From Antedon mediterranea (lineage: Eukaryota; Echinodermata; Crinoidea; Comatulida; Antedonidae): DNA of 64,000 nt. The position numbers and the translations under genes are program-made. Under the pieces are notes generated by a model. The model was given only the letters and a program-made list of their open reading frames with translations. It did no database searches and was not told the DNA's origin. The stretch spans positions 26,275,795-26,339,794 of the forward strand of contig NC_092670.1 of the NCBI RefSeq assembly GCF_964355755.1. Direction: 5' to 3'. Positions 14,846-61,883 of the stretch are shown piece after piece (position 1 is the stretch's first letter; each line of letters begins with the position of its first letter).

Positions 14846-14879
14846 AAGTAAGGTTTATATTGGTTGTCTTAATTGCAAT

Positions 14880-33282: not shown

Positions 33283-33436
33283 ACCCGGGAGCGTGTTTTG
33301 CACGTGTGTGGCGACCGAAATGCATGACGTCACGACCGAAATGATCGGTATTGCTGTCACGTCTGTGTATAGCCTAGGCCAAATGTAATAAGAGAAATTC
33401 AATCTGTTGTTAAATCTAGCATTTAATCTTGTTGAT
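33283..33436 (+). promoter_or_regulatory. Promoter and 5' leader of the Acl4-like gene
   Basis: The 154 bp between the transposon and the ATG contain CACGTG (33301-33306, E-box) and a perfect cAMP-response palindrome TGACGTCA (33325-33332). No TATA box is seen. Two CGACCGAAAT words flank the CRE. This looks like a short TATA-less housekeeping promoter. Confidence 0.5.
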
Positions 33437-33509
33437 ATGGAAGAAAATAAGAGGAAAAATAAAAAGAAAAAGCACAATAGAAGAGGCCATGCAAAAAGTG
33501 AAAATAAAG
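33437..33509 (+). CDS. First coding exon of the Acl4-like gene
   Basis: An ATG opens 24 codons (MEENKRKNKKKKHNRRGHAK, then SENK) and one extra base before AAAG|GTAGGA. The lysine- and arginine-rich start is usual for this chaperone family. The phase (1) matches both 46287 and 49029. The distance of 13-15 kb to the next exon makes the link an inference. Confidence 0.65.
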
Positions 33510-39500: not shown

Positions 39501-42500
39501 AATTTATGTTAGACTATATTTGAATAAGAACACCCCATTACCATAATGTAGTAACATTTGATGTTTACATTTGTTATTGTTAGAGAATCTCAGCTCGTTC
39601 AACTAGAGGCTTAAGGCATAAGGCTAAAAAATGATGCAACTATTAAGATAGACCGATTTGTTGTAATTTTGTTATGAACAATTTTGCACAGCCAACAGAA
39701 TTTGTTTATTTCTAGGAAAAAATTATATTAATATACATTTATATTTATAAAAACATTCAAAGCAATTGCCCTATAATAATCGAATAATTATGTTATAAAA
39801 ATACATATAATAATGTTTGTAAATTCAGTTTTTAGCAAAAAAAAGTACATATGCAGGCAAAAATATTTTTTGTTCTGATTACTAATTATTTTATTTGGGA
39901 TTTGATGAATAAATGCATTTGTACACCTGGGGAGGACTGCAGTAACAGCAGAGGGTAGGGCGCTGTTGGGTGGCACCAACTGGGTCATAAAACCGGCATA
40001 TCCCCAAATACGTTCTGCAGTAGAGGCGAGTTAAAGCCGCCTCTAAATAGGCCTAGCCATGCCCTGCATTAGGCAGCAGTGATGCAGCATTGGTGTCTCT
40101 GCGGAAGATCCATTTCTAGGACAACGGCAAACCTCAGCACACATTGTCAGGCAGGATGGTGATCCCATTTATGGCTGATAGACTGCGGTGAAGAAGGCAA
40201 CGGGAAACCACTATCATTTTTCCAAGAACAATTATGAAGTGTCACAATTCAAAAATGAAAGCTAACGGCATAAAGGGGGTACATCCATTGTATGAAGGAG
40301 GCTCCTCGCCCGGTAGGGTGTCTCATGTGCGACAGGTGGAGCTCGACCGTCATCAAGCTACTGTCCGCAATAGAAGACAAATAATGGTGAATTTATGATT
40401 GATGATTACAAGATGATTTACGCTGGAGGAGACAAACATGAAAAAGGTGTAGGGTTGCTTTTGGATGGTGATATGGCTAAATGTATGCTGGGCTATTGGG
40501 CTGTGAGTGAAAGAGTTATGCTGGTCAAACTGCAGGGACAACCCTTCAATATCTCTATCATAGCGGTTTATGCACCTACAGCTGACAGCACAGATGAAGA
40601 GATAGATAACTTTTATGCGACCTTAGACCAGGCCAAATCCCAATGCAAATCAGATGAGATAAATATCATCATGGGTGATCTGAATGCAAAGGTTGGCCAT
40701 GGACAAGATGGAAACACAGTTGGAGAGCATGGGATGGGTGAAAGAAATGAGCGTGGTGATAGATGGGTGAACTGGTGTAAAGCTAAGGATATGACCATAA
40801 CAAATACATGGTTCAAAGAGCATCCCAGACGAATATACACATGGAAGAGCCCTGGTGATGTGACGAGGAATCAGATTGACTACATTGCAGTAAACAGTAG
40901 GTGTAAAAGGGCAGTGACTCATGCAAAAACATATCCAGGGGCAGATTGTGGAAGTGACCACATTCCAGTGGTTTGCACACTTCAATCAAAGTTAAAAAAG
41001 GTGAAGAAAGCCAAAAATGTACAGAAATTAGACTTTGAGCAGCTAAACAGTCCGGAGATCCGTTTGGAATATTCCATTCAAGTGAAGAATAAGTTTGACA
41101 TCCTTGTAGATGAAGGTGAAGAGATTACGTGGGATGCAATGAGAGACATCCTTGTTGAGACAGCCAAAGAATCCTAAAGCTTGGTTCTCACTAGAACGTA
41201 ATGCAAGGACGTAAACGCAACGCAAGCGTTTTAACCAATGACAAGCGAAGTTATAGACAGTTAGCAATCACAAGCGAATAAGCCATCGCTTGTGATTGGT
41301 CAATTCACTTTCGTTGCGTTACGTCCTTGCGTTGCGTCGCTAGTGGGAACCACGCTTTACCCAAGAAAGAGAGAAGAAGGGAGAACAAATGGGTGTCGGA
41401 AGAGATACTATCAATGATGAGGGATAGACAGAAGATTAGTAGTAGATCAAGTAAAGAATATAAAGATCTAGATAGAGAAATTAAGCAAAAGTGCAGGGAG
41501 GCAAAAGAAAAGTGGCTCAACACCCAGTGTGAGGCGATTGAGAGTGGACTAGAGAACAACAACCACAAGATTTATCAGAGACTTAATGAGATCACTGGAA
41601 GGAAATCTGGCTGCTCAAACTCTGGATGCATTAAGGCAAAGGATGAAACAATGCTTGTTGAAAAGACTGATATTTTGAAAAAATATCTGTCCAGAGTATA
41701 TCAGGGAGCTGTTTTTTGATGTTAGACAAGCAATGCCAAGCTTTCCTGACTCAGAAGAAGGACCAAAGATCTTGAAAGCAGAAGTACGAACAGCAATCAA
41801 GATATTGAGGAAGAATAAGGCGGCAGGACTGGATGGTGTAGTCATTGAGATGATTGAGGCATTAGAAGAGTATGGAGTGGAAAAGTTAACTGAAGTGATC
41901 AATAAGATATATGAGGATGGAAGTTTCCCTGAGGACTTGAGTAAGTCCATTTTTATTGCCCTTCCAAAGAAACCAGGTGCTGTAGAGTGTGAAAAACATC
42001 GTACAATCAGCCTCATGAGTCATGTCACCAAGATCATTCTGAGGATACTACTTATGAGAGCAACAAGTAGATTAAAACCATAGATTGGGAGTGAGCAGTT
42101 TGGTTTTGTAAAGGATTCAGGCACCAGGAATGCCATCTTTGTGATAAGAATGATAACTGAAAGGTAAGTGGAGATGCAGAAAGATGTATACATGTGTTTC
42201 ATAGACTACACCAAAGCATTTGACAAAGTAAGGCATGAGCAGCTATTTCAAGAACTTAGCAAGCTTGACCTACATGGAAAGGATCTTCGATTGTTGCAAA
42301 ATGAGTTTTTATTAGTGTCCAAAAAGGAGAGTCCAACGTGTAACCTTCGAGCAGGAGACCAGTTAATTCAGCAGGTGTCCTCTTTTAACTATCTTGGGAG
42401 CAAAATAACAGATGATGCCAGGTGTGTAACGGAGATAAAGAGAAGGATAGTCCTTGCGAAATCCGCATTTGGAGAAATGGAGAATATCTATGAAGAACTG

Positions 42501-45500
42501 TGCGATGAGTATGGAAACCAGGTTGCGTGTATTAAACTGCTACATCTATCCTGTGCTGATGTATGGAAGTGAAGCCTGGTCAATCACAACTGACCTCAGA
42601 AAAAGATTGGAAAGCTGTGAGATGTGGTTTCTAAGGAGAATGATGAGAATTCCATGGACAGATAGAGTTAGTAATGAAGGTGTATTGATAAGAGCTGGAG
42701 TGTGCAGGAAACTACTGAAGGATATTAGGATTAGACAGATGAGATTCATGGGACATGTGTTGAGGGAAGGGAGGTCTGGAGAACTTGGCATTAACTGGGA
42801 AAATAGAAGGAAGAAGGAGCAGGGGGAGAAAAAGAGTCACTTGGTTGGCCAGCATAGCTGAGTGGATTCGGAATAGAGGCAAGAATACCAAAGAAGTGGA
42901 GTTGCTGAACATGGCAATAGACAGAGAATTGTGGCACAACATGATCGCCAAAGTTTCATGATATGGCACTTCGAGAGAGAGACCTTGTTGAGCAGTATGT
43001 TGACGTGCTCTGGGGATAGTGTCATCATCGTCCTCAAATAGGCGGAGGGGATATGCCCTGGTTTTGGGGCCCCATTGTGTGCCTTCCATCAAGAATAGTG
43101 CAAAATTTTCATCCAACGAAAGTGTATAAGTAATTTTCCACCGTGACCTTGTAGAATCGTGCACACACGCAACAAACACTAAACATAGACTTGAAACGAT
43201 ACGTACATAATAGTAAGACAACGAGTACCTTGACCTTAAGGAAATTTCTTCTTTTTTTTTTACATTTGTGGGTGCTGTTTTACATTTGTGGGTAATGTGT
43301 TTTCACATTTTTGGTTGTTTTCACATTTGTGGTTGTTTTCACATTTGTGGGCGTTCTCACATTTAGTTTAGCTAGTTAGACTTTGTAGGCCTAGCCGGTA
43401 AAGCAGTAATGACGAACACCGTACACCAGCTATAAGCGGTGCAGGTCAACACGGCCCTAAACCGTCTCGGCCCAAAGTCAACTCGGCCCCAAGTCAAGTC
43501 AGCCTCAAGTCAATTTGGCCTCGCGTCATCTCGGCCCCAATTAGTATTTAGCCGGTCAATTCGGCCTCATTAAAGTATGGAACGCAAAGAAGGGCTAATT
43601 AGTAATAGTTGATATTATAATGACGTCAGGATTAGGCTAGTAAGGTTAAGCCTACACATAGGCCTAGAAAAAATAAAACGGAAAATTCAATATGAATTAT
43701 AACACACTCGGTCGTTTTTCGTTTAATTTATTTAAATATTATTAGTTGTGATGTTATTGTTAGTCTTAGTAGGCTATTATTATGTACTAGGAGGCCTATA
43801 TATTTTGATACAAGGATTTTCCCAGAATGAAACGAAATATTCTTAGATATAGATAGATATTATTGGATTACCGTATATTTCGGTGTATAAGTCGCACTTT
43901 TGACACGCAAATTTGACCTCTAAATTAAGGGTGCGTCTTATACACCGAACATAAATGCCTCACCACACAGATTGTACATAGGCCTAGGCTATCGTCACCT
44001 CGTTTGCTAGGCCTGAGTAGGCTAGGCCTGAGTAGGCTAGGCCTAGCTACAGTAACTAACTAACGTAACGGCAACCTGCTTCTGCCTAGTTTTCAAGTCA
44101 TTTTAGCATGATGTTATACTAAATATGATGAACAGATTTGTTCATTATGGCGCTCCGATAAAATTTCATTTGTAAACGTTTACACGTACGATTGGAATAG
44201 TATTTATTTATACAGTAGTTATACGCACGATCGCCGTACCCCCAGCGCAAGCCCTTCTTTTGGTGGTCACATGGTGTACGGTTAGACTTGCTCCAAGTCT
44301 GTATTTAATGTCTTTCTTAAAGTCATTCCACACGTCGTCGTTTTGATTTTTGTCTGAAAATACAGACTTGTGAAACACGTATAGAAATCGATTTGCAGAC
44401 CGCAAACGTCCGATAAGAATGACGTAGGTTATCATACCGTATTTGGCTATATGGCGCGGGCGGTATGTAAATATAGATTTCGAACCAACCAATGATCATT
44501 TTGTTTAAGAATGAAAATATCGAGTAGTTTTCATGTTCTTGGAAAAAAAATCAAATCGAATGTTTACCAGACTACTGGGCATATAAAATCATTTCTAGCC
44601 TTCAGAAACGTTCATCAATGTACAAAAGTACACACGTGTACGTCTCCACACATTGTCTACTCTAAACGTAACATAGCGCATGCGCTACATCTTACTGTAG
44701 TTGTTGAGTCTTTGAAATTCTAAAATATGAATATTAAAACAGCGTACGAGTGAGTAGCCAATCGCATGCGGCTGAAACTAGTCAACTGGATAATCTATGC
44801 ACCAAGAATTCTTGGTGTCAAACCACGTGACTTTTGCGTGTTTCCCCAGACGGAGTATCCAACTCAAGTAATACACCGTATGAAACGCCATATGTGCAAA
44901 AATATTTATATTTTTACTAAAATTAAGACAAAACTCCGTCTGGAGCCCAGACTAGGTGTACGGTATTCGACTAGTATATTCTCTAGGTGATTATAGCATG
45001 GACCTAGCGTACACACTTCTCGGATACATAGATACTAATCGAATACGATTGTCCGTTAAAACGTGCGCCCTCTCGAAATGATCGAGCGAGGCTAGCCCAC
45101 ACACGTACATCGTGTTACACACATGGTCATGCACTCAATGTTGCGGCGAAACTCATGAATAACAAGTTAGAAAGAACTTGTTGAGGCTGGGCGCGGCCGA
45201 GCCTAGGTAAGAAAAAACCTAAATAAAGGACGCCGTTGTAGATATAACAAAATATATTATTACAATAATATTGATTACAATTTAAAAAAACATTGTTTTG
45301 ATGAAATATAAGGTGCGTCTTATACATCGACGATGTATTTTATTGTTAACCGTTTTTGATGTTGTATTGTTTTATGTTTCAAACCTGTTAGTGGCGGTAT
45401 TTATCGCTGTTGGTTTTGATTGAATAAAATAAAATAAAATAAAATAAAATAAAAAATACCGATATTTTACTCTCAGTTAGGGGGTGCGTCTTATACACAG

Positions 45501-48500
45501 GTGCGACTTATACACCGAAATATACGGTACAGTAAAATAAAAATGTTTATAAAAAGTCATATATTTAAAATTATTTATTATTTTACCAATTCGCTTTGCT
45601 TTTTGCGTTCCATACTTTATTGGGGCCGAGTTGAGCAATTATTTTTTGGCCGAGTTGACGTGAGTCCGAGTTAACTTGAGGCCAAGTTGACTTGAGGCTG
45701 AGTTGACGTGTGGCCGAGTTGATGTGGGGTCGACTTGACTTTGGCCGACTTAGCTAGACTTCGGCCGAGATGGATTAGGGCCGAGTTGGATCGAATTCGC
45801 TATAAGCCTAAACCTGACCTTGTCTTGTTGCTAAATGAATTGTCTTCTCTTTTTTGGCAGAATCTGTCAATATAAATTGTGGAAGACCTGGTATTTTCGC
45901 TGAAAAGTTACGGTTCTTTTATTTGTTTACCGTTTCACGTGATCAATCAAAGTGGGTACATCACATCACAATATGAAATACTCAATCTGCACGCGATACA
46001 TTTATAGCGGGCCGCTAACATTATTAAAATCAACTTATTTTTCACATTTTTAACCATTTAAAGATGAAAAAACATTGCTATAGGTCCATATACAGAGTAA
46101 TATTTATTTTTAAACGTAGGTCTTTAAGATTATTCAAAACCTCATTTATTTAGCAAATGTCAGGATAATATCTATATAAATGTTTGATTATTGATTGATT
46201 GATTATGCACTTCAAACATCACATATTCATGTTGTATGCAGTTTACAGTATGACATTTTTAAAGTGGATACACAAATTATTATTAGGTGCTATTCAGCAA
46301 GGGTTAGAAGAAGCATACCGCCAACAGCAGGAAAAAGAAGTTCAATATGTACGTTTTCCAGCAAAATCAAGACGTGGAAAGGTATGGTCACTACACTTTA
46401 ATTATAAGACATTGAATGTTCATATACTTTACAGTAGAATGCGATTTAAGTTCTTAATCAAATGTTTTCGATTTACTGTAAAAATTTTCCTCAGGAAATG
46501 TTGGTTGACAGCAATGGATATAGATACACCCAAAAGGTTGATAAGAGGCGTTCTAATGTGAATTGGCGTTGTTGTGTGAGGAATAAGAATGTTACGTGTA
46601 TGGCTAGTGTACTTGAGCGGGGTGACAAGTTTATTAAGGGGAGACAAGACCACATTTGTGAAACAGGTATTTTTATTATAGTGAATAAAAAAGAAAAAAT
46701 GTATCAAGCATAAACTTCAATATTGATTATTAGGTACTGTAGTTTATTAGTAGTTTAATGCATTTATAATTAATTATGAATACTATAAATATTTTGTCCA
46801 CATACTGTATCCTCATTGACATGTTAAAATCTGCCAAGTGTCTTAAGAGAATAATAATAATATCCTGGATATATATAGCGCCTAATGTAAATGAAATCTC
46901 TAAGCGCTGAACATTACTACCCCAGTCATATTTTTTTGGATCAAACACGTATGGAAACTTACTTCCATAATGCAGCTAGTAATCAGCGCAAAGTTGTGTC
47001 TTGATCTAACCGGGTACCCATTTATACACCTGGGTGGAGAGAGGCAAACGTAATTAAAGTATCTTGCCTACAGATACAAGCAATGCGGTGAGAGTTGGAT
47101 TTGAACTTCGGTCTCACGATCAGTAGTCCAACGTCCAACACACTGCGCCACACGCCCTCAGATATTAAACTTATTAAATGTCAATTGAAATTCTATATTT
47201 TCAACACTAGGCCTAATTATAATTTAAAGTGTATATTATCATTAAAATTTAAAAAAAAATTACAGACCTATATATCTATAGTCTTTATTCTTTATTTAAC
47301 AATGTAAGTTGGCAGGGTACAAAAAGAACTAAATTCCTATGGCTAAAGAGCCTCTACTCTAATAATGGATATTAATTTTAGATTTAACTTATAGAAATAT
47401 TCTTGTAAATATATATTCTGTTGATACAAAATAAATAGTACGTATAGTACCGCGGATAATAAAACTTGGCTCTGGCCTGTTAAAAACAGAGCAGTCGATT
47501 TTTCAACTTATGGAATATTCTCACGACCAACTCATAAAAATTAATACTATTGCACACCATGTAACCCACAATCGTTAAAATATTATTTTAAAATATAATA
47601 TTTTAAAATAGTTCTGTGTCTGTCTGTAATTGTGTTGTGTATTAAAAAGTAAAAAGTAAATTCATTGAAATTAATTGAAATTGGTTTTATTCAAGGTTCA
47701 TCCTTAGAGGAATGGTTTTCGCAACAGTCAGATTTACAATCTGAAGAAGAGAATATATGCCTTCCACTTGCTACTTTCGATAAATTGGTAATTGAAATTG
47801 TTTTTGTGTAATTATATGTTTATACAAAAAATTACATATATTTTCCCCTTTTATTAAGTTTGTTTGTGTCTATTTTTTCAGGAAGTTGAAGAGATTTCAG
47901 AAGAAATAGAGTACATGCATCTTCCAGTAGCAACTAGTCATGGAAAGGTATTGATTGTAGTTTAACCCTCTCAGCACCGAATTTGGAAAATATATTTAAA
48001 AAAAATAAGACTGATTAGGTATTTTGTTTAAACCGTTAATGTTAATTTTAATGCATGTAATATTTTAGTAATTGTTTCCACTAGCCAGATAGATACATAA
48101 TCTAGTCTTTTGCCTTAAAGAGAGCAGATGTTTAAAAAAATAAAAATATATATTTTTTATATCACAGGAAATGTTGATTGACACTAAAGGATACCGTTAC
48201 ACTCAGAAAGCAGATAAGAGGCGTGCTAAGATTAGTTGGCGTTGCTGTGTGCGTAACAAGTACATTATGTGCAAGGCAACGGTCATAGACAAAAATGGCA
48301 AGTTAACAAGAGGAAGACAAGATCACATATGCGTGCCTACTCAAAGTATGAATTTAGTGTATTCCGCTCCGCATATCAAGGGTGTCCAGTTTTCTTAATC
48401 TAGATCAAAGTTTGAAAAAATTATTATTTGTGTGTGTGTTTCTGGTTTTCAAGGAGTCCAGTAGAGAAGTTCACTTTGCCTTTATTGTTAATTCAATGTT

Positions 48501-51500
48501 GAACTTATGTTATTTTGATAATATGTGAAATTAAGTAGATAAAACAACTTCTGTTAATGATTATTATATAATAATTGATGAAATTAATACAAATTTTCAG
48601 TATAATTTTTTTTATTATTTCCCCTTCCATAATAAGTAATTTTGTATAAATTGAGCCACCTATTATTTTTGAAAAACATTACTGTTTTGCAGTCAAAACC
48701 CAGTAACATTTAATCAATTTAATATTTTAATATCAGTAAATTATCTTTCTATATTTTCTAAAATGTGTGTGTGTTTAAAAGTTGATATTAAATATTTCAA
48801 ATCTTTATGCATGTTTTAGTTGCTCAATTTTTTCAAAATGTTTGTCTGTGTTCTGTTTGAATATAGTTTTTGTTAAATTCTTTAAAAAAGGCATTCATAA
48901 TTGTATTAATGTATTAATTGTTTTTTTTGTTTTTTTAAATTTTAATTTACATGAATATTATTAGTGTAGTACAATACAATATTACAAAAATAAATAAAAA
49001 ATTTGCTGTTTGACATATTTTCTTGTAGGTGTTAAAGAAATGACAAAGAAGCTTAAAAAGGATGCACTTTCAGAAGAATCTAAAAAAGATTCTGTTAACC
49101 AAATTCTAGACAAGGTTTGGTAATAATTTTAAAAACAACTACTGTACAACATTACTATTTAAAATAAAAATTCTAACTAAAGAAGGATTGGTGATTTTAA
49201 TTAATTTAAATGTTTCTTTCTCATAAATCTTTCAAAAACCCCTACAAATTTTACTGTACCCATTGATAAAATTGAATATTATGCCAGATGTGTACAGTCC
49301 TTTGCATGAAGACATGTTCTACTGTACCACCAACACTTAAATACTCAGCCACTCGACTCGGGTATGGAAACGCATCTAAAATAGTAAATTTCCTTTAGAT
49401 TTAAATCTAAACTTAATTTTTTCACCATTAGGCTGAAGCGTGTATGGACACTTTTGACTTTGAGATGGCTCAAAAACATTGTCAAGCAGCACTAGAGATA
49501 GAACCAGACAATGTGCGAGTACTGGAGACAACTGGAAATCTGTTGGTGGAAATTGGAGATGTCGAGGGAGCTAAAAAAATATCCTTTAGTTACATTTGTT
49601 TTGTTGCATAACCTTATGAAAATAATAAACGATGAATGGTTGATTTTAATACACCATTTTGCAATGTAAACCCACATTAAAAAAAATGTACTGTAACATT
49701 CTGGTTAAAATCCCTGTGACTGCCTTATAATATTAAATCGTTCTCTTCCTTAACTATTTTAACTGCTTTGGTAGAGCGGTGAGTATTTGTCCCGACTCTG
49801 GCTATACTAAGTACATGTATTTAGGACAGGTGTTTGAAGGTCAGCAGGCTATTGACTGTTTTCACAAAGGAATTGATATTATGTTAAGTGAGAAAAAACA
49901 AAAGGTTAGTGTTTCACAGCATACCATATATGCTATACTTGGGGCAGTTATTCTTTTCTTAGAATGCTAATTTTTAAAAAGGAAACAGTTATGCATTGCC
50001 TTTAAAAGATATATTTTATTAGGATGATATGTTCTTTATAATTGTTATTGAAAATCCATGTTTCTTCCATAGGCAAACAAAACTTCTGAAATTAGTGTTT
50101 TGAATAATGCAATTGCAAGTGCATACTGTTCAATAGCTGAAATGTATCTGACAGATTCATGGTATGTTTTTCTAGCATTGATTTAAACTATTGTATTAAA
50201 TAATTGTTACCACTGGTGAAAGTACCAATTTGATGAACAGTGTAGTATAGCAGAAACAAATGTTGAGTTAGTTTAGGAATAATAGTATGCCTAACAAAGC
50301 ACTTTTAAATAAAGCAATTATTATTATACACATCCTAACATGAGGCATACACATCAGCCTCACAGGAGGCAAACACACCTGCTTCACAGTAACTTTTATT
50401 GCCGTTACGCAATAAATTTGGTAGTAGTCGCTGTTTCTAAAACGCAGTAGACACAACAATTCAACGGTACAAACGTCCGGTATATTCCTTTTATTGTAGC
50501 TGGCTTAACACAATACCACGGCTTACCGGCAAGCTGGCTTAACAACACCACTGCTTGCACCAGTTATAACCTTCAATCTACGTTAACACTGTTTTATACA
50601 CTGTAACACTTGTCCAACTGGTAAACAGTAACTTACTAACATAGATTTCGCATCTCCGTTGCCTTTTATAAGCGGACACATTTGTTATGCAAATTAAAAC
50701 TTTACGGCTGACTAAGCCAACAACACCGCATGGTGTTTAACAATACAGTACTAACTTTACTCTAGCAACAGTAACCATCCAGGCCTAGGCCTAACTCTGC
50801 ACATACATTACTAGGCACCTAAAAGCATAGTATTTCTGGGTGAGACATTAATGTTGACATTTCAGATAAGATTGCCAAATTTGAAAAATTGAAACTTTGA
50901 AACTTTACCTAAACAAGAAAAGAGAAAAACTATTGTTGACAAATATTGTCGGGTACCTGGTAATCTAATGAAATTATATGTTTCCCGGGTAAATAAACAT
51001 ATGGAGTAGAATAAAAAGCTTTTACAAACCGAGGGATTTCAGGGAAGCAGTCCTACAGGACTCCGTTGTGAGGGCCACAAGTGCCATATCCATTTGTATT
51101 GACATTCTGCTAGAAGCAAAAGGAACAAAGAAGGCTCCAAACTACAAGCCACGCTTATTCAATTGTCAATAAAGAACAGATGCATGCAAAAACACACCAG
51201 AACAATTTCTCTTTGGTAATTTGATCTAAAAAAGGTTAATGACAGATTCAAAGCTTGATGGAAAGATTTTTGTCTTGCCAGAACCAACCTCAAGTGGGGA
51301 GATACTCCTTACACGCTCCTTAGCTCCAATTTCTCACATTCACTCCCAAGTACCAGCCAGTACCAGGGGACAGTCTGGTCAGAGGGCAAATGAGTAAGAA
51401 TGTAACTAAACCTAAAGGTATACTTAATAACATGGGCATTTGCCATAGTTATCAATGTATTAAGAATTTTTGTGAGACAAACAACAGGGACAGCCGATTT

Positions 51501-53456
51501 TAAATCCATAGAGAAAATATTGACACAGAATGGAAATTAAAAGGAATATAAAAGAAAAATCATACTACCATTTCCACTGCAAGAAACTATGAGTTTGTCG
51601 CAAAAAGAGATTTAGAATATGAAAGCATGAATATGCATGCATCTAAAGTTTGACGTTTTTTGATTCACATGAACAAATTCGCCTAGTGGAAAACAGCTTT
51701 TACGATTTCATACATGTTTTCAGTGCTGGTTTCCTTAATCCTGAGTACTGCTTTGTCTATTTGGGTTTCCAAATCTATCACATACATTCTTTTGTGAACC
51801 AATTGTTATGCTATTATTTAATGTTGCTTTAATATTACAGTATATCAAATTCTTTTTTATATATTTAAAATAAATTGTTTATTTCTATGTTTCTTTATTC
51901 AAGTTTCGAAGATAAAGCAGAAACCCAGTGTCATGAAAACCTAGAGTCAGCCTTGCAGTACAACCCAAACAACCCTGAAGCATATCAATTGATGGCAAGC
52001 TACTTCCTTAGCACACAGTCCAATCAGGTACATTTTGCATTTATATTTTTGTATATCTTCCATACACTGTAAAACAACATTGCATTTCTCTTTTTTTAAT
52101 TTATTCATAAAATCGACAATTTGTAAAATTGATGATTCATAAACTGTTCGTAAAATTTAAGTTTAATGTTTACTTAAAGAACAAATATAACGTTGGGCAT
52201 AATGAGAGGCAGAGGCAGGATTTTAGAGCCGTTGGTACGAGACTGTAGGTTTGCAATTTAAAAACCTTGTTTTTTTTCAGCATGCTAAAGAAATGATTAA
52301 AAAGAGTATAGCATTGTGGTTGCCAAAACTGAAAGAAATTGAGAGCAGTAAACCAGTTGGTGGCGAGTTTGACCCTGTTGAGGTTTGTCCACTGAGTTAC
52401 CTCAGTCGAATTAGTGCTGTTAAGATTCTTATAGAAGTTGAAGAATTTGATGTAAGTTACCAAAAAAAAATTAAATATCAAAGATTAATAATCTTTTTCT
52501 TATTAATCTTTTTCATATTAATCTTTTTCTTAAAAATCTTTTTCTTATTAATCTGATTGCATTACGTTTTATCTAATGTTGATAATTAACACACTCTAAT
52601 TGCACATTCAACTTTTCTAAACATTTTCAGAATTTGTGCCAAGCGATATTGTAGACTGATCTGCATTTGAAAATCAATTAGTTGGACCACTGCCTTTTTG
52701 AAGGGCCTAGCTTCCCGGCCTAGCATTTGTCAATGATTTACGATAAATAAGTTGAATAAATGTAGGGTGTAAAATAAATAAAATAATATAAATATTGAAT
52801 GTTTTGCATTCATTGAATGGAGAAAAATTGACTCTAATTTGAATTTGGCTCATTAAAATAGAGCAGTTAATTATTCAACTCGTAAAATATTCTCACCATC
52901 CAATTCATAAACATTCATTATTTGTATAAAACTTCTTCTTTCATTTTCATCAATATGTTCCTTCAATTAATCATGTTTATTTGGTTTTACCTTGTTTAGG
53001 TTGCTGAAGAAATTCTACAAATGTTGTTAGAAGAGGATGATGAAGTGATTCAAGTGTGGTACCTCCTTGGCTGGCTCCATTGTTTACAAGACACTGAAGA
53101 AAATAAATCATATGCTAGATATTTTTTACAAAAAGCCAAGAAGGTACTTTAAATTTACTGTAAATGCTTGTGAAATGTGAAGAATAATGAATTAATTCAT
53201 CAGAATCTATAAGAGCCTATTCTAAACTATTCTTTACATACATTTTTCTGCATTTCAGCTCAGTCAAAAGGTTGATGATGATAGCTATGTATCCATGACT
53301 TCACATATTGATGAACTATTAGAGAATGTTGGACCTGGAGATGGGGATACTGAGGATTGGCTACAAAAATCACTTGAAAGAGCAAAGAAAAATGATGATG
53401 ATGTATCAAGTGATGATGAATCAAGTGGTGAGGAAGAAGAGAATATGGAACATTGA
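33437..53456 (+). CDS. Acl4-like TPR chaperone of ribosomal protein L4, with optional FLYWCH exon cassette
   Basis: Canonical exons: 33437-33509, 49029-49114, 49432-49578, 49764-49904, 50073-50161, 51904-52027, 52281-52451, 53000-53143 and 53259-53456; 1173 nt, 390 residues. The start MEENKRKNKKKKHNRR is basic. TPR helices follow: AQKHCQAALEIEPDNVRVLE, GDVEGAKKCFGRAVSICPDS, HENLESALQYNPNNPEAYQL, VIQVWYLLGWLHC. An acidic tail (DDESSGEEEENMEH) ends it. Length, TPR layout and acidic C-terminus fit the family annotated as probable assembly chaperone of rpl4 (yeast Acl4), which escorts new Rpl4 to pre-ribosomes. Phase 1-1 exons 46287-48345 encode two FLYWCH fingers and would give 591 residues if included. 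One intron is AT-AC. The first intron is 12.8 kb (or more) of transposons. Confidence 0.82.
34430..34680. repeat. Minisatellite of about 85 bp, three units
   Basis: The units contain GATTCGATAGTATGTAAAAG, AGATTCGG(C/T)(A/T)ATACCGTACG and AATGCAATACTGTATAA. Two further units lie at 36275-36400, on the far side of the nested repeats, so the array was probably split by insertion. Confidence 0.8.
34800..35462. mobile_element. Possible short element bounded by G-run/C-run inverted ends
   Basis: The left end CCCGGG...GGTCACT (G-run 34804-34822) is mirrored by AGTGACCCC...CCTGAG (C-run 35448-35461). Inside, two copies of GGTAGCACAAGTGTGGGAAA sit at about 34883 and 34917, followed by a TATA-like GGCTATATAAGCCC at 35046. 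A 67-codon open frame 35155-35358 has no recognisable domain. Class unknown. Confidence 0.4.
35463..36285 (-). repeat. Dispersed repeat A, inverted copy with an insertion
   Basis: The reverse complement of about 20775-21250, interrupted by 35712-36049. Shared words include GATACTGTACTCGAGCTG, AGGAGGAGATAGGAAAATGC and CAAATCGTTGAACCTAAATT. Confidence 0.85.
35712..36049. mobile_element. 338-bp MITE with 8-bp target duplication and a known empty site
   Basis: The ends GAGTATTGCTAAACACCGC (35712) and GCGGGGTTTAGCAATACCT (ending 36049) are imperfect inverted repeats. The flanks are GTGTATAC (35704-35711 and 36050-36057). The related repeat A copy at about 21000 has a single GTGTATAC and no insert. 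The interior has a strong hairpin around TAAAAGTGATTGAATCACTT. No coding capacity. Confidence 0.9.
36290..37900. other. Intronic, nothing but simple repeats recognised
   Basis: Contains the remainder of the 85-bp minisatellite (36275-36400), a GTCGGTCTGTC microsatellite at 37018-37058 and AT-rich sequence with many ACGCAC words near 37160-37560. No gene. Confidence 0.5.
37900..38265. repeat. Tandem repeat of about 120 bp related to the hAT-like element interior
   Basis: Three units carry (C/A)CCATGGTAGGGCT(G/A)GTTCT, GGAGACA, TTTCATATTTCGAA and CC(A/G)GGGAC(T/C)TAGCA(G/A)CTCT. In reverse complement they resemble 5090-5360 inside the transposon at 4802-6640. Confidence 0.55.
38276..38630 (+). 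pseudogene. LINE RT fragment with internal deletion
   Basis: 38280-38400 reads YDKIRPIPLTDHFAKVAEGF, then QWLMRDIY and LNPNQFGN, the palm region of an I/Jockey-like RT. After a deletion, 38470-38600 reads EIINVVDSVKMLGLQ and ANGRIYMLKLL, wording from past the YADD core. Stops and frame changes are present. Confidence 0.65.
38630..38850 (+). repeat. Direct duplicate of 45875-46110
   Basis: GAGGAAGACCTAGTATT, CATCACATCACAATAT, TTATAGC(A/G)GG, AATCAACTTATTT and TTTAACCATTTAAAGA occur in the same order and spacing at both places, with about 15 percent differences. Confidence 0.75.
38850..40010. other. Intronic, nothing recognised
   Basis: AT-rich sequence; the short open frames have no recognisable content. 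Confidence 0.5.
40010..42960 (+). mobile_element. Broken RTE-like LINE
   Basis: A 5' region with the usual GGGAAACCAC(T) word (40200) is followed by an endonuclease lacking its first part (40395-41176: YAGGDKHEKGVGLLL, IIMGDLNAKVGHG, WKSPGDVTRNQIDYI, GSDHIPVVC). A 181-bp MITE interrupts the linker. RT then follows at 41733-42300 (KNKAAGLDGVVIEMI, FGFVKDSGTRNAIFVIR, CFIDYTKAFDKVRHEQLF). The catalytic ADD block is deleted at about 42310, and the C-terminal domain (SFNYLGSKIT, YPVLMYGSEAWSI, RRMMRIPWTDRV, RQMRFMGHVLRE) is split over two frames to about 42860. RTE clade by wording; certainly inactive. Confidence 0.85.
41177..41357. mobile_element. 181-bp MITE with TA target, nested in the LINE
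   Basis: The ends AAGCTTGGTTCTCACTAG and CTAGTGGGAACCACGCTT are inverted (16 of 18). The pairing continues inward with CAAGGACGTAA / TTACGTCCTTG and CGCAACG / CGTTGCG. TA flanks both ends (41175-41176 and 41358-41359), as for Tc1/mariner-type MITEs. It interrupts the linker between endonuclease and RT. Confidence 0.88.
43261..43376. repeat. Short tandem array TTTTCACATTTGTGG
   Basis: Six units of 18-20 bp with T(A/C)ACATTTGTGG(G/T) at their core. It is a single arm; I saw no inverted partner nearby. Design-wise it resembles the arm arrays of the foldback element at 23757-25200. Confidence 0.8.
44007..44050. repeat. Minisatellite CTAGGCCTGAGTAGG
   Basis: Nearly three 16-bp units, built around the TAGGCCT word that recurs through the window. 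Confidence 0.85.
45340..45458 (+). repeat. LINE/SINE-like 3' end with (ATAAA)n tail
   Basis: GGCGGTATTTATCGCTGTTGG followed by a run of about seven ATAAA units (45423-45456) looks like the terminal piece of a retroposon, inside the nested DNA element. Confidence 0.45.
45861..45890 (+). CDS. Possible 30-nt micro-exon of the Acl4-like gene
   Basis: TTTTTTGGCAG| precedes AATCTGTCAATATAAATTGT, then GGAAGACCTG|GTATTT. It is phase 1-1, so it could be spliced between 33509 and 46287 (adding ESVNINCGRP). Its right part, however, belongs to the duplicated segment 38630/45875, so it may be chance. Confidence 0.2.
45875..46110 (+). repeat. Direct duplicate of 38630-38850
   Basis: See the shared words given for 38630-38850. 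This copy lies just right of the 9-bp duplication of the 43438-45798 element. Confidence 0.75.
46287..46666 (+). CDS. FLYWCH zinc-finger unit 1 (two exons)
   Basis: Exons 46287-46381 and 46495-46666. The first gives GAIQQGLEEAYRQQQEKE and QYVRFPAKSRRGK. The second gives EMLVDSNGYRYTQKVDKR, WRCCVRNKNVTCMASV and GRQDHIC. FLYWCH hallmarks are the RGK-loop, GYRY, WRC, the second Cys and a His-x-Cys in place of the usual His-x-His. The unit begins and ends in phase 1. An in-frame ATG at 46199 would allow an independent start. Confidence 0.75.
46851..47157 (-). mobile_element. tRNA-derived SINE
   Basis: On the minus strand it starts GGGCGTGTGGCGCAGTG (A box TGGCGCAGTG), then about 35 nt later AAGTTCAAATCC (B box). 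A body with AAATGGGTACCCGG follows, then AGGCGCTATATATATCC and an ATTATTATT tail. It sits in the intron between the two FLYWCH units. Confidence 0.8.
47696..47787 (+). CDS. Linker exon, remnant of a further FLYWCH unit
   Basis: The exon gives SSLEEWFSQQSDLQSEEENI and CLPLATFDKL, between acceptor TTCAAG and donor TTG|GTAATT, entering in phase 1 and leaving in phase 0. Its end (ENICLPLATFDKL) is like the first-half exons of the two FLYWCH units (YMHLPVATSHGK), but no second-half exon follows it directly. Confidence 0.6.
47882..48345 (+). CDS. FLYWCH zinc-finger unit 2 (two exons)
   Basis: Exons 47882-47947 (EVEEISEEIEYMHLPVATSH, GK) and 48168-48345 (EMLIDTKGYRYTQKADKRRA, WRCCVRNKYIMCKATV, GRQDHICVPTQ). 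It has the same exon cut after Gly-Lys as unit 1 and the same residues, so the two units are duplicates. It ends in phase 1 and joins 49029 as ...PTQ-S-VKEMTKK. Confidence 0.78.
48346..49028 (+). other. Intron between FLYWCH unit 2 and the TPR exons
   Basis: AT-rich, no element or exon recognised; donor CAAA|GTATGA, acceptor TTCTTGTAG. Confidence 0.5.
49579..49763 (+). other. U12-type (minor-class) AT-AC intron
   Basis: The intron starts ATATCCTTT right after codon Lys of GDVEGAKK. It carries the branch-site consensus TTCCTTAAC at 49746-49754 and ends in AC at 49763, 10-11 nt past the branch A. Joining gives AKK-CFGRAVSICP in phase 0, a normal TPR helix pair. No GT-AG pair gives this protein. 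185 bp long. Confidence 0.93.
50162..51903 (+). other. Longest TPR intron, no gene recognised
   Basis: 1.74 kb. 50440-50780 has repeated ACACTGTTTTATACACTGTA-like words and could be repeat-derived. No ORF with a domain. Confidence 0.45.
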
Positions 53457-53568: not shown

Positions 53569-53574
53569 AATAAA
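53569..53574 (+). terminator. Poly(A) signal AATAAA of the Acl4-like gene
   Basis: 113 nt after the TGA at 53454-53456, followed by an A-rich stretch. Confidence 0.7.
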
Positions 53575-54997: not shown

Positions 54998-56830
54998 TAA
55001 AACATGTCTGTATCTTATCATCAGCCGTTGTCAGTCCACTGCTGGACGAAAGCCTCGGCATGTTTCTGCCGTAGTGAACGATCTCTAGCTGCTCCCTGCC
55101 AATGCACTGTACCCCAATACTTGTCTATTTCATCTCGCCATCTCACTCTTTGTCTTCCTCTATTTCTGCTCCCATCCATGGGTCTCTATGATGTCATTAG
55201 CAAAGTCCATCTATTGTCTGTTTTCCTACTGATATGTCCAGCCCACTTCCACTCACTTAATTTGATAGTTCTCATAATGTCTAGGACTTGTGTTTGTTTC
55301 ACACCCATTCATTTATTTTTCTGTATGTGATTCCAAGCATATTTCTTTCCATGTTGTGCTGTGCTGCTGCTACTTTTCCATTTTATTTGACAGTGTCCAG
55401 GTCACAGCTCCATATGTCATGGTTGGTTAAACACGCATTGATTAAAGACCTTTCTTTTTAGGCTTGACGGTATTTCCCGTCTCATGATGTTGCTCAGTTT
55501 TCCATATTGGCACCAGCCTAATCTGATCCTCCTCTTTATCTCCTGTTCTTGATTCTTTTCTTTCAGGCTAAATCTCTGCCCCAGATAGATATATTCATTA
55601 ACTTCATCAATTTTATTGCCATTAATAGTCACAGATCCATGAGGTATCATGGAATTTGCCATATTCTTCATATTCATTTTCAATCCAAAACATTTGCTGG
55701 CATTTGCAAGGTCTTTAAGCATATCCTCTATTTCACTAATTTGCTCTCCCAGGACAACAATGTCATCTGCAAACCTCAGATGATTACATTTCTCCATTGA
55801 TATCCACTATTTTATCCTCCCACTCCAGTGAGCGAAATATGCCTTCCAAACAGGCTGTAAACAGTTTAGGACGAAATTGTATCGCCTTGTCGGACACCCT
55901 TCTTTATGTGGATTTTCTCGCTTGGTTTGTGCATCTTAACTGTGGTAGTTCAGTTGGTGTAGATGTCCTTGAGTAGGTTAATGTACTTATGATGAATTCC
56001 TTGATATTAAGAGCTTTAGAACTGACTGTGTCTCCACCGAATCAAATGCCTTTCCATAGTCTATGAAGGCCATACAAAGCGGTTTGTTGTATTCTTGGCA
56101 TTTTTCTTTGAGCTGGTTCAGTGTATGAATATGATCCATGGTGGAAAACCCACTCCTAAACCCTGCTTGTTCTCTGGGTTGGTGGCTATCAAGTGAATTT
56201 TCCATTCGATTTGTCAGGATTCTTGTAAACAACTTGATGTTTGAAAGAAGACTAATAGGTCTGTAGTTTTTGAGATCCCCCTTTCTTGAAAAGGATGATC
56301 ATGTTAGCTTCTTTCCACTTCTCTGGCACTTTCCTCTGTGTATAGCTTCGCCAGCTTCTTAGCAATGACATCTTCCCCTCTTTGATTGTGTCAATTAAAA
56401 TCTGGTCCTGGTGCTTTTCCTCGTTTCATGTTTTTGACTGCATGCTGCACCTCCCAATATGTGATGTCTGGAGTTTCTTCTGAGTCTATGGATAATTGAA
56501 GTACTGGCTGCTTTGATAGAGTACTTCATAAAATTCTTCAATCCTCATCAAAATCATGTCTTGATCTGTGATTTCTCTCCCTTTTTTTTTTATCAAGTAA
56601 TGTTATTTTCTGCTTTTTACTTGCAAGTTTCTGCTTTGTTTTCTTTAAACTTCTATTGTTTGTTATTGTTTTTTGAATTTTAAGAGTGTTGTATTTTCTG
56701 ATGTCTTGTCAGAGTTTCTTTCGTATTGTCTTGGATGTTTCTGTATATTCAACATTCTGGAATCCAATTCCATCTCTCTTCATATTCCTCCTTTTCTCCA
56801 TTTGCCGCTTGGTGCGATCTGAGAGTTTGG
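54998..56830 (-). pseudogene. Decayed RTE-like LINE
   Basis: On the minus strand: [40 protein letters not shown] and [14 protein letters not shown] (56232-56010). Then comes LRFADDIVVLGEQ with the FADD variant, NEYIYLGQRFSL and RRIRLGWCQYGKLSNIMRRE (55797-55440). The 3' domain, in broken frames, runs to about 55000. Several frameshifts and stops. It is different from the LINE at 40.0-43.0 kb. Confidence 0.8.
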
Positions 56831-58937: not shown

Positions 58938-61883
58938 CCTTACAATGTTTTCTAATTTTTTTTTTTACGGATTTTGATTCTCGATACCATCAGTCAAAAT
59001 AAAGAATTTTGTTACTGGACGGCTGTCAACAGCAACAATTTGCACCCACAGTATGAGTCTTAGGACTACAACAAAATATGGATATTTTTGTGTCATATTT
59101 CACCCCACATTTTTACCCCACATAGAGTATTTCCAATATAGGGTTTCTTGTAGCCCCACATAGAGAACCCAGAAGAGTCCATCAAGGACCAGCCCTTGGG
59201 TTCATTTAGGCAAATCCATAAATGTTCCTTAAAGATCAAGGGTACACATTTAGTTTTATTCCATATTATGGTTAAATCTATGAACTATTTACCCCATACA
59301 GGTATCAGGTCCTTATGTAGTGCACCACATACAAATCCCAAAAGAATTCTTAGAGGGTTAATTCGGGCAAATACATATCCATGGGTTATTTATTTGTATT
59401 GTGTGGACAGGCAACTTTTTCCTGTTTGGGCCAGCCTATTGAGACCAAATGTTTGACTACCCATTTCCATTAATACAGAGCCGGTATGGCCCATAGAGAA
59501 CAGAAAAGATCCTAAATGGATCAAAAAGCTGCCACTTTTTGAGAAAATGTTGCATTATTGGCCCCCTACGATAAATATTCATTATTATTATTTTTTTTTT
59601 AAACGTAGGTCCCAGTCTTGCAGCAGGTATAGATAAACCCAAAAGTAAAATTGATTATGATGGAAGAGAACCCTTCAAAGACAATGTATTCAATTTTGAA
59701 CCCGTGTCATGTGAATGGGTCTTTAGCTATCTGAGCAATCTTCCAACAAATAAAGCTACTGGGTTTGACAATTACCCCCATATATTTATAAAATAGCTGC
59801 TTAAACGATTTCCCCAATTATTAAGCATATTATAAATCATTCGTTTACTACATGCTGTTTTCCTACAAATTGGAAAACTGCAAAGGTAAAACCCATATTT
59901 AAGAAAGGTGATAACTCGAACCCAAGTAACTATCGTCCTATTTCTATACTACCAGTAATTTAAAAAATTATAGAGCGTGCTGTCTTTGATCAACTATATA
60001 CATATTTAAATATTAATAACCTAATATATGTAAATCAATCTGGTTTTCGTCCATCGTACTCTACATCTACAGCACTTGCCAAAATTACTGAAAATTGGTA
60101 CAGTGAAATCGATGAGGGTAGGATGGTCGGTCTATGCATGCTGGATTTCAAAAAAGCATTTGATACGGTAAACCATCACATATTATTGAGTAAATTAAGA
60201 TTATATGGACTTAGTAATTATACAATACAGTGGTTTAAAAGCTACCTTTCTGAAAGATCCCAATTCACAAATGTCAATGATATGTTATCTGAACGTACAG
60301 TCATCAAATGTGGGGTGCCCCAGGGTTCAATCGTCGGTCCTTTGGCTTTCCTTATATATATAAATGATATGCCACGTGTTGTTAACAAGTGTAAACTTAG
60401 TATGTATGCAGACGACACTATTGTATATTATGCATCAGAAAATGAAATTTATCAAACAATAAACTATGAGCTTGAACACATTTATGATTGGCTGAAGAAT
60501 AACAAACTAAGTCTGAACATCTTAAAATTAGAATTTATGCTAATAGGATCAAATCAGAAACTCTCCAAAATTGAAAACAGAGAACGTTCTGTCCACATAA
60601 ATAATATTCAAGTTCCTAGAGTATGCTACAGTAAACATCTTGATGAAACGCTAAGCTGGAAATACCATATTGAATATACTCGTGCGAAGGCTCTAAAAGG
60701 TTTAGGTATGCTTAAACGATGTGGACACATTTTTCAAAATAATATATTAAGAAATATTGCAAATTCTATTATAATTCCACATCTAACTTATTGTAGTGTA
60801 ATCTGGGGTAATTGTGGCTCGAGCTTTCTAAAAAGAGTACAAACTGTACAAAATAGAACAGCTCGAATCATATTTGGCCTATCTTGGGACACACCAAGTA
60901 AAGATGCACTTCAGCAAGTAAATTGGCTTACCCTCTCAACTAAAGATGAGTATGAATGTTGCATGTCAATTTATAAAGTTATGACGGGGCGTGCACCCAC
61001 ATATCTATCAAATCTAGTTAAACAAAATAATTTCAAATATAACTTTAGACATAATGATACAAACCTCAATGTTCCGAAACCTCGCACTGAGTATAAAAAA
61101 CGTAGTATTTCTTATAAGGGGGTTATAACTTGGAATAAACATAATATTGATATCAATAAGATGCCACAATCTCTGAACGTATTCAAAAAAGAAATTGCAA
61201 ACATATTTAAACTGGAAGCCTAATGCTGTATTATTTTTCTCTCTTTTAATGTTTTTGTATAAATGTGTATACACTGTATTATTTGTATATCTTATATTAC
61301 CTATCACATTGTGGAAGAACACCTTTATTTTATGGTGAACGAATTTTATATTTTGTACTTTTGTATAATAATTTCGTGAATAAATAAAGATTTTGATTTT
61401 GATTGATTGATTTATATTATCAAAATATAGAATAAATTTATTAATTATGTCAAAGGTCAATAACCACACTTCTGGTCATTTTCAAGCAAAATCTTCTGTT
61501 AGACTGAATATAAATATATATCTTGGGAACAATTTGCAACTAGTTTTAATTCACTCTAACCTGCCGTTAATTAGATATGGCGGAAAGAGGTCAAAGGTCA
61601 ATTGCTAAAAATGGGGTTTCCAGTCAATTTTACAAAAAAAAAACTGTTAGAGCTAATATAAACATATACAATGTGAACAATTTGACACCAAAATTAACTC
61701 AATATGTCCTGTAAATCCAGAGATATAAACATGTTTGTATGAACATAGCGGCCATTTTGTTTACGCTAATTACGCAAATTGCTCAATGCAGAGAGCCGTC
61801 CAGTAAAGAATTCTTCATTCTGATGGTATCGAGAATCAAAATCAATTAAAAAAAAAAATTTAGAAAACATTGCAAGGCTAACC
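58938..61883. mobile_element. Possible 2.9-kb element with about 75-bp inverted ends enclosing a LINE fragment
   Basis: The left end CCTT(A)CAATGTTTTCTAA, T-run, GATTTTGATTCTCGATACCA, then TTACTGGACGGCT is mirrored at 61799-61883. Between them lie AT-rich repeats and the LINE remnant 59600-61410. No target duplication read. Confidence 0.6.
59600..61410 (+). pseudogene. 5'-truncated CR1/L2-like LINE
   Basis: 59600-60120 is broken by stops and indels (NLPTNKATGFDN, KVKPIFKKGDNSNPSNYRPI, NQSGFRPSYSTSTALAKITE). From 60123 a 366-codon frame is open: MLDFKKAFDTVNHHILLSKL, GVPQGSIVGPLAFLIYINDM, the catalytic YADD, HLTYCSVIWGNCGSSFLKRV, then a C-terminal domain to the TAA at 61223. An AATAAATAAA signal and GATTTTGATTTTGATTGATT tail follow at 61377-61410. 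Endonuclease missing. Not the same family as the LINE at 11.5-15.7 kb. Confidence 0.85.

Follow-up and report, generated by a model that had tools for sequence, protein, structure and literature searches.

New host proteins are known to arise from the DNA-binding domains of transposons. Transposase capture gives rise to host–transposase fusion genes (Cosby et al. 2021, as described in PMC8616336), in which the transposon exons can be used via splicing and the DNA-binding part is often kept. In TMPO (LAP2alpha) and ZNF451, an exonised alternative 3' exon carries its own poly(A) signal, while the original isoform is kept by alternative splicing (excerpts of PMC4495291). In the cases considered here, the domains are joined to transcriptional regulators, to nuclear proteins (TMPO, ZNF451) or to F-box genes, or they stand alone. 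Acl4 is presented in portions of PMC5296656 and PMC4598080 as the dedicated chaperone of Rpl4, and the basic tail of Chaetomium Acl4 binds the importin Kap104. The terms "FLYWCH", "zinc finger" and "isoform" are absent from the main text of both papers, and a search of a limited literature collection found no paper pairing FLYWCH with Acl4.

Here, we describe two FLYWCH modules, A and B, on the host-sense strand in intron 1 of an Acl4-like gene in Antedon mediterranea; the window is the whole stretch of DNA analysed, 64,000 nucleotides long. Judged by sequence, the FLYWCH exons of A and B are kin to transposons of a PHD-like/FLYWCH/MULE family that is dispersed in this genome. We suggest, with confidence about evenly balanced, that they represent a captured transposon DNA-binding module that probably supplies alternative exons to transcripts from the Acl4 promoter. 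The module may be fused to the TPR chaperone; an alternative 3' end (stop at 48397) would fit nearly as well, as would a nested separate gene.

The Acl4-like gene and its FLYWCH modules

The t exons encode a homologue of Acl4 (PDB 4ynw, E 8.6e-25, residues 22–305, the TPR array), and the predicted e1 a very basic tail (MEENKRKNKKKKHNRRGHAKSENK), so that intron 1 separates the basic tail from the TPR fold (Table 1). The e1 donor (AAG/gtagga, phase 1) scores 8.7 bits, at the 99.2nd percentile of GTs. Translation confirmed that the predicted splice from e1, ending in phase 1, to t1, starting in phase 1, yields a 390-residue product, as had been proposed. The gene is single copy in the genome, an AATAAA at 53569 follows the t8 stop, and an in-frame ATG is also present within t1. 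No retrocopy of the chaperone was found in the genome, and viral contigs contained no confirmed relative of either the chaperone or the FLYWCH alignment.

Table 1. Positions of predicted exons and of the intervening repeat in the window
Feature	Positions	Strand	Description
e1	33437..33509	+	predicted first coding exon, Acl4-like gene; 24 codons and 1 base
A1	46287..46381	+	5' part of module A; tail ...EVQYVRFPAKSRRGK; good 3' donor, phase 0 exit; 5' edge uncertain
A2	46495..46666	+	core FLYWCH exon A; entry phase 0, exit phase 1
SINE-like dispersed repeat	46850..47160 (approximate ends)	+	between A and B; outside cassette
B1	47696..47787	+	predicted acidic exon ahead of module B, SSLEEWFSQQSDLQSEEENICLPLATFDKL; 5' edge uncertain
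B2	47882..47947	+	5' part of module B, EIEYMHLPVATSHGK; acceptor 9.2 bits, 99.1st percentile
B3	48168..48345	+	core FLYWCH exon B; entry phase 0, exit phase 1
t1	49029..49114	+	second exon, Acl4-like gene; phase 1 in; acceptor 5.6 bits
t2-t8	49432..53456	+	TPR exons, Acl4-like gene; TPR family profile matches; then stop
t2	49432..49578	+	Acl4-like gene
t3	49764..49904	+	Acl4-like gene
t4	50073..50161	+	Acl4-like gene
t5	51904..52027	+	Acl4-like gene
t6	52281..52451	+	Acl4-like gene
t7	53000..53143	+	Acl4-like gene
t8	53259..53456	+	Acl4-like gene

The two blocks match the FLYWCH profile (PF04500) with 29.3 and 28.3 bits, against a Pfam cut-off of 23.6. Module A has C26, C35, H53 and C55, which we take to be the metal (zinc) ligands of FLYWCH in the pattern C..C..H.H/C, and the same columns are filled in B. 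FLYWCH zinc fingers have a four-stranded fold of the WRKY-GCM1-like type. For exon A2, four strands are predicted (pLDDT 65.2); its best Foldseek matches are WRKY domains (E 0.88 and 2.2), with none of 146 matches at E <= 0.001, and a PDB sequence search with the FLYWCH exon gave no convincing relative. The original prediction described the modules as blocks; A holds one intron and B two. The A1 tail resembles that of the transposon copy L011 (local score 54 vs 20.3 +/- 4.2 for shuffles). B1 shows weak similarity to B2 (shuffle fraction 0.005) and to A1 (0.024), is not similar to any of four transposon tails (shuffle fractions 0.082–0.861) and has no other genome match at E <= 0.1; with similarity this weak, A1 and B1 were rejected as clear duplicates.

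Of 2581 candidates, 40 were scored. In these, the SINE-like stretch recurs with 87–95% identity at at least 39 other places, and the cassette DNA outside it matches no other locus. Because only the SINE-like stretch is repeated among the 40, we rejected the idea that the cassette is a recent high-copy repeat, though weaker matches may lie beyond the scored set.

The source transposon family and constraint on the modules

Several lines of evidence point to the transposon family as the source of A and B. First, at least 42 further places in the genome match the core FLYWCH exon, and in 30 of the 42 listed the match starts at the same exon edge. Each of the 17 other loci checked, among them several near-identical copies, has an AG at the homologous exon edge. 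A donor is found at the corresponding position in every one of the 11 loci that extend this far, and it is in phase 1 in all except L035, a damaged copy. Because 10 of 11 transposon loci share the phase-1 donor, the phase-1 exit of A and B is inherited from the transposon. Second, the joined pieces of L013 match the MULE transposase domain with 43.0 bits (cut-off 27.6). L016, a more distant frame, reaches 23.4 bits, which is under that cut-off, and the PHD matches in the family (22.2 and 21.7 bits) are under the Pfam cut-off of 24. Third, deletion copies have inverted ends, with a 9-bp TSD in L050 and an 8-bp match in L052; in L051, an 8-bp TSD match was obtained with one of two 5' ends tried and none with the other. 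This TIR/TSD result rests on the deletion copies, not on the fuller copies L013 and L049. The modules are intruders with an identifiable source, and exon insertion, one of the two explanations offered for the symmetric blocks in the original prediction, is supported.

Queries for the PHD and transposase parts, nine in all and taken from L011, L012, L013, L015 and L016, detected no remnants of these parts in the window at E <= 1, which argues for a captured part rather than an element. We suggest that a Mutator-like (PHD-like/FLYWCH/MULE) DNA transposon landed in sense orientation in intron 1, a phase-1 intron, of the Acl4-like gene and that its transposase and PHD parts were then lost. The FLYWCH exon pair, already equipped with the phase-1 donor of the transposon, would have been retained; it is present twice, probably through one insertion followed by duplication.

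Two independent insertions, rather than one insertion and a duplication, seem improbable to us; this alternative overlaps the other readings, so that the probabilities do not sum to one. In protein, A is nearest to the transposon copy L011/L002 (68% identity), vs 60% for B, and by path length L011 and L014 are closer to A than B is, all of which would fit two arrivals. The nearest DNA identity is 72% over 144 columns and 79% over a stretch of 115 bases. Against two insertions, five residues are common to A and B and absent from the transposon rows compared: E1, M2, R10 and K45 occur in none of nine rows, for which the row starts of L029–L031 were taken from separate locus inspection, and R50 is absent from the eight rows long enough to include that position. 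A and B also lie on the same strand, and the negative search for PHD and transposase parts in the window speaks against two arrivals as well. Without the long-branched L016, A and B form a sister clade (support 82/86 in protein and 55/80 in DNA). With L016 included, the AU test gives p 0.188 for protein and p 0.040 for DNA, where the tree does not unite A and B and the clade is rejected, a result in favour of two insertions. We consider the sisterhood of A and B unsettled.

The substitution pattern bears on whether the modules are functional. For the A–B pair, omega is 0.127 (LRT 28.4), and for the A and B branches jointly, in a test that assumed the two to be sisters, omega is 0.144 (LRT 30.4 against neutral). 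A alone gives an LRT of 7.1, whereas B alone (omega 0.43, LRT 0.74) is indistinguishable from neutral. Two old fragments decaying without function in the intron would be in line with the fit of B alone to neutral change and with the damaged FLYWCH copies elsewhere (6 of the 42 other matches listed have an internal stop and further ones are truncated). We regard such a relic as quite improbable: A and B are open and have kept every splice dinucleotide and each putative zinc ligand, yet the rest of the element was not found in the window. Moreover, when neutral base change was simulated (4000 runs), 0.45% of the runs left A and B both open at 0.2 substitutions per site, and no run did so at 0.4 or above; the joint constraint on A and B likewise speaks against decay. 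Part of this constraint could stem from a time when the modules still belonged to an active transposon. Altogether, the joint purifying selection on A and B and the negative search for PHD and transposase parts favour co-option.

Splice phase and candidate transcripts

The original prediction held that both blocks begin and end in phase 1, leaving all four combinations in frame. The latter point was borne out, for all four translations are open: the product has 390 residues with neither block and 479, 502 and 591 residues with A, B and both, respectively. The phase symmetry itself holds at the 3' ends, where 46666 and 48345 are in phase 1 with the backing of homology, although as sites both donors are moderate (4.9 bits, 93.0 percentile, and 3.4 bits, 86.2nd percentile of GTs). 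At the 5' ends the acceptors are ambiguous. The acceptor at 46287 is weak (−4.8 bits with a vertebrate matrix, 37.5th percentile of window AGs), and of the ten AGs scanned for the start of A1, six are in phase 1, three in phase 0 and one in phase 2; the top AG, 46328 (4.0 bits), is in phase 0, and the top phase-1 AG is 46242 (2.0 bits). For B1, the top AG is 47728 (4.9 bits), in phase 0, vs 3.8 bits for 47696. Given the weak 46287 and the alternative AGs in other phases, 5' phase symmetry is assumed and compatible with the sequence. With about 0.3 of introns in phase 1, two independent phase matches would arise by chance in about 1/10 of cases.

We propose that transcripts from the Acl4 promoter carry the basic tail of e1, from which splicing could lead to FLYWCH A and/or B. 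After the FLYWCH part, they could continue into the TPR chaperone by an in-frame splice from 48345 to 49029 or end early, because read-through of the B3 donor leads to the in-frame stop at 48397. With that stop and an AATAAA at 48989, the stretch from B3 to t1 leaves room for an independent 3' end. The FLYWCH-bearing product would have a nuclear DNA-binding function. A living host–transposase fusion, in which optional splicing inserts one or two FLYWCH modules after the import tail and ahead of the TPR array, is a rather doubtful version of this scheme.

A nested separate host gene, made of domesticated FLYWCH exons with their own start and 3' end in intron 1 and never joined to the chaperone, is somewhat unlikely but has several points in its favour. 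In addition to the weak acceptor at 46287, the stop and the AATAAA, an open frame that runs from 46199, upstream of A1, contains in-frame ATGs, and intron 1 offers six candidate segments from an ATG to a phase-1 donor on the + strand vs two on the opposite strand, used as control. On the other side, the 3' boundaries of both modules match the phase of t1, and B3 retains its donor, for which a terminal exon would have no use. Nor was a convincing first exon or promoter found for such a gene: the CpG-rich region upstream of A1 is largely repeat insertion. As a promoter of its own this stretch is unsupported, since ~43869–45529 is a dispersed element, which carries another insertion; CpG stays raised to ~46000.

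If the captured module is indeed used from the Acl4 promoter, a ribosomal-protein chaperone would have acquired a transposon domain, tying ribosome assembly to a DNA-binding domain. A living fusion, if it exists, would give a nuclear protein able to bind DNA as well as a ribosomal protein, for example linking RPL4 supply to gene control. The locus also suggests a simple route for such a capture, in which the transposon's own phase-1 donor fitted the phase of the host intron. Because the genome still harbours relatives of the source transposon, the steps are directly comparable.

Comparison with known systems

The following comparisons draw on parts of the cited papers. Among transposons, Rehavkus elements (PMC6446971) are MULE-like, with a PHD finger and a 9-bp target duplication. 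The source family resembles them in being MULE-like and in the 9-bp duplication of L050; its PHD matches are under the Pfam cut-off, and the table of PMC6446971 lists no FLYWCH for Rehavkus. A further mark of Rehavkus is a minisatellite ahead of the 3' TIR. Like the Mutator-derived FLYWCH transcription factors of PMC10027918, the locus appears to have recruited FLYWCH from Mutator-like transposons into host sequence; those proteins are predicted transcription factors, whereas the module here lies inside a chaperone gene. With the TMPO/LAP2alpha and ZNF451 isoforms (PMC4495291) it shares transposable-element coding sequence within a host gene. In those genes, that sequence is a single large, expressed exon from a DIRS1-like retrotransposon; here, it consists of multi-exon pieces of a DNA transposon and is known from sequence alone.

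Acl4 is a TPR protein with a basic, unstructured N-terminal tail. The chaperone here matches it in sequence over the TPR array, and the predicted e1 is strongly basic, as in the described part of PMC5296656. Unlike in Acl4 as portrayed there and in PMC4598080, an optional FLYWCH module could sit between tail and TPR array. Finally, as in the fusions formed by transposase capture (PMC8616336), coding exons of a DNA transposon lie in sense orientation inside a host gene. The locus differs from those fusions in that its splicing is predicted, in that a MULE would be the source of the FLYWCH module and in that the module is present twice; and while PMC8616336 stresses domains of transcriptional regulation, the partner here would be a ribosomal-protein chaperone.

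The Acl4-like gene and the modules in its first intron

The coding exons predicted for the Acl4-like gene (e1 and t1 to t8) together encode a 390-residue TPR protein; among solved structures its best relatives are those of Acl4 (4ynw, E 8.6e-25, residues 22-305). Searched exon by exon, the genome (354 Mb, 18 contigs; the window is C1:26275795-26339794) contains a single such gene, with nine matches, all inside the window, and no retrocopy of the chaperone gene was found in this search of the whole genome. The assignment of e1 is a prediction based on its frame, its donor and the basic 24-residue tail that it would encode, MEENKRKNKKKKHNRRGHAKSENK, which intron 1 (15.5 kb) separates from the TPR array; an in-frame ATG is also present within t1 itself. 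Just 5' of e1, a CpG-rich stretch carries CACGTG and TGACGTCA motifs (33301-33332), which fits a promoter. The t2-t3 intron (49579-49763) begins ATATCCTTT and finishes TTCCTTAACTATTTTAAC; judged by the consensus, it resembles a minor-class (U12) AT-AC intron.

Predicted coding exons of the Acl4-like gene and of the FLYWCH blocks A and B (window positions)
Feature	Position	Strand	Description
e1	33437-33509	+	predicted first coding exon of Acl4-like gene
A1	46287-46381	+	block A, intron 1
A2	46495-46666	+	block A, intron 1
B1	47696-47787	+	block B, intron 1
B2	47882-47947	+	block B, intron 1
B3	48168-48345	+	block B, intron 1
t1-t8	49029-53456	+	remaining coding exons of Acl4-like gene

Blocks A and B each encode one FLYWCH finger exceeding the Pfam cut-off. 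The original prediction held that the blocks are phase-symmetric, so that all four exon combinations stay in frame. All four are indeed open (390, 479, 502 and 591 residues), and for A2 and B3 homology supports the 3' boundary, in phase as well as position; half of the scheme, however, depends on uncertain sites, the 5' acceptors of both blocks. Scored with a vertebrate matrix, the acceptor suggested at 46287 does poorly (-4.8 bits, 37.5th percentile of window AGs). Among 10 AGs scanned near the A1 start, six are in phase 1, three in phase 0 and one in phase 2; the highest score belongs to 46328 (4.0), in phase 0, and the best phase-1 site is 46242 (2.0). The B1 start is similarly loose, its top AG, 47728, being in phase 0. 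Acceptors are strong at B2 (9.2 bits) and B3 (7.9 bits) and moderate at A2 (2.7), and the donors of A2 (4.9 bits, 93.0 percentile) and B3 (3.4 bits, 86.2nd percentile) are moderate relative to window GTs.

A Mutator-like source of the FLYWCH exons

The modules come from a family of intron-containing, Mutator-like DNA transposons. Module A has at least 45 matches in the whole genome, 3 in the window and at least 42 elsewhere; among the matches listed, 30 of the 42 outside the window start where exon A2 starts (residues 23-25), and an AG lies right at this edge in 17/17 other loci read in detail, several of which are near-identical to one another. Six larger regions were read (L011-L016). In L011-L015, MULE transposase pieces are encoded in the same orientation as the FLYWCH exon, with a PHD-like finger ahead of them in L012, L013 and L015. 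The joined L013 pieces reach 43.0 bits for Pfam MULE versus a cut-off of 27.6; the PHD scores, 22.2 and 21.7 bits, stay under the Pfam cut-off of 24. The FLYWCH-MULE frame of L016 is more distant (MULE 23.4, under the cut-off). A donor homologous to those of A2 and B3 is present in 11/11 transposon loci reaching that far and is in phase 1 in 10, the sole exception being a damaged copy (L035). Since A2 and B3 sit in a family with its donor in phase 1, their phase-1 exit is, on this homology, inherited from the transposon.

Among internally deleted copies with inverted ends, L050 has a 9-bp target duplication and L052 an 8-bp match; in L051, one of the two 5' ends considered gives an 8-bp match. 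These three MULE copies lie on different chromosomes and are ~81-99% alike by segment; in copies related to them, the FLYWCH exon runs directly into the transposase end.

Elsewhere in the window, LINE-like reverse-transcriptase frames occur at 11840-14854 (-; Pfam RVT_1, E 3.5e-37) and, by sequence reading, at 40374-42861 (+), 55417-56298 (-) and 59964-61223 (+). A probable BTB-BACK gene occupies 2848-7318 (+), with BACK at 6749-7315 (E 8.6e-5); the BTB part is likewise a reading, and the two frames upstream of BACK have no Pfam match at E <= 0.001. Two long frames at 22099-27807 (-; 431 and 686 aa), possibly a fast-evolving gene, have no Pfam match at the same threshold.

Kinship of the modules and constraint on them

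No match in the window at E <= 1 was obtained with nine queries taken from the PHD and transposase parts of L011, L012, L013, L015 and L016, and, with 40 of 2581 candidates scored, the cassette DNA matches elsewhere only via a SINE-like stretch between the modules. The closest other copies are L014 (72% identical over 144 columns) and L002/L011 (79% identical over a 115-base stretch). A and B have in common E1, M2, R10 and K45, absent from 9/9 transposon rows compared, and R50, absent from 8/8 rows reaching that column. A is nearer overall to L011 (68% protein) than to B (60%), and L011 and L014 also have shorter paths to A than B has. With L016 left out, A and B form a moderately supported sister pair (82/86 for protein, 55/80 for DNA); with this long-branched sequence included, they are not (AU p 0.188 for protein, 0.040 for DNA). 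We prefer, as a reading not proved, one insertion followed by duplication.

Over 72 codons, the A-B comparison gave an omega of 0.127 (dS ~2; LRT 28.4 versus omega 1), with synonymous change saturated. On a five-row tree with A and B fixed as sisters, omega was 0.144 on their end branches (LRT 30.4 versus 1); tested alone, A gave an LRT of 7.1 and B one of 0.74, which is not significant. Part of this constraint may stem from the transposon's own life. In 4000 runs of a neutral simulation of base changes without indels, both blocks were open in 0.45% at 0.2 substitutions/site and in none at >=0.4.

Possible use of the modules and known counterparts

An extra module in intron 1 would come after an import tail and ahead of an intact TPR fold. 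Given a phase-1 acceptor (e.g., 46242, 46287 or 47696), the product would be an in-frame tail-FLYWCH-TPR protein; a second form would be a tail-FLYWCH protein terminating at the stop at 48397. The weak acceptor at 46287, ATGs within the frame that is open from 46199 onward and an AATAAA at 48989 speak for a third possible form, a nested gene that starts independently; that the CpG-rich region at 43.5-46 kb is mostly inserted repeat speaks against a clear promoter of its own. First-exon candidates in intron 1 (six on the + strand versus two on the control strand) decide nothing. A dispersed DNA element bounded by 31-bp inverted repeats occupies 43869-45529, a short way upstream of A1; it contains a further repeat (~44282-44935) and is the main contributor to the local CpG peak. 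As for the proposed exon insertion and fusion, the FLYWCH pair in the chaperone gene is real and transposon-derived, and it has probably been co-opted; its fusion to the chaperone is plausible but unproven.

The fold predicted for exon A2 has four strands (pLDDT 65.2), and WRKY domains head its list of structure matches, at statistically weak values (E 0.88). In the literature searched, no paper with both FLYWCH and Acl4 was found. According to PMC10027918, FLYWCH domains stem from Mutator transposases and were recruited independently in several animal lineages, and PMC8616336 describes how, in tetrapods, host genes have captured transposase domains via splicing. The locus described here would work much like such host-transposase fusions and is a candidate member of that class, the defining feature of which is a transcript joining host and transposon exons. 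The form ending at 48397 would be comparable to the terminal exons that PMC4495291 presents for TMPO and ZNF451.
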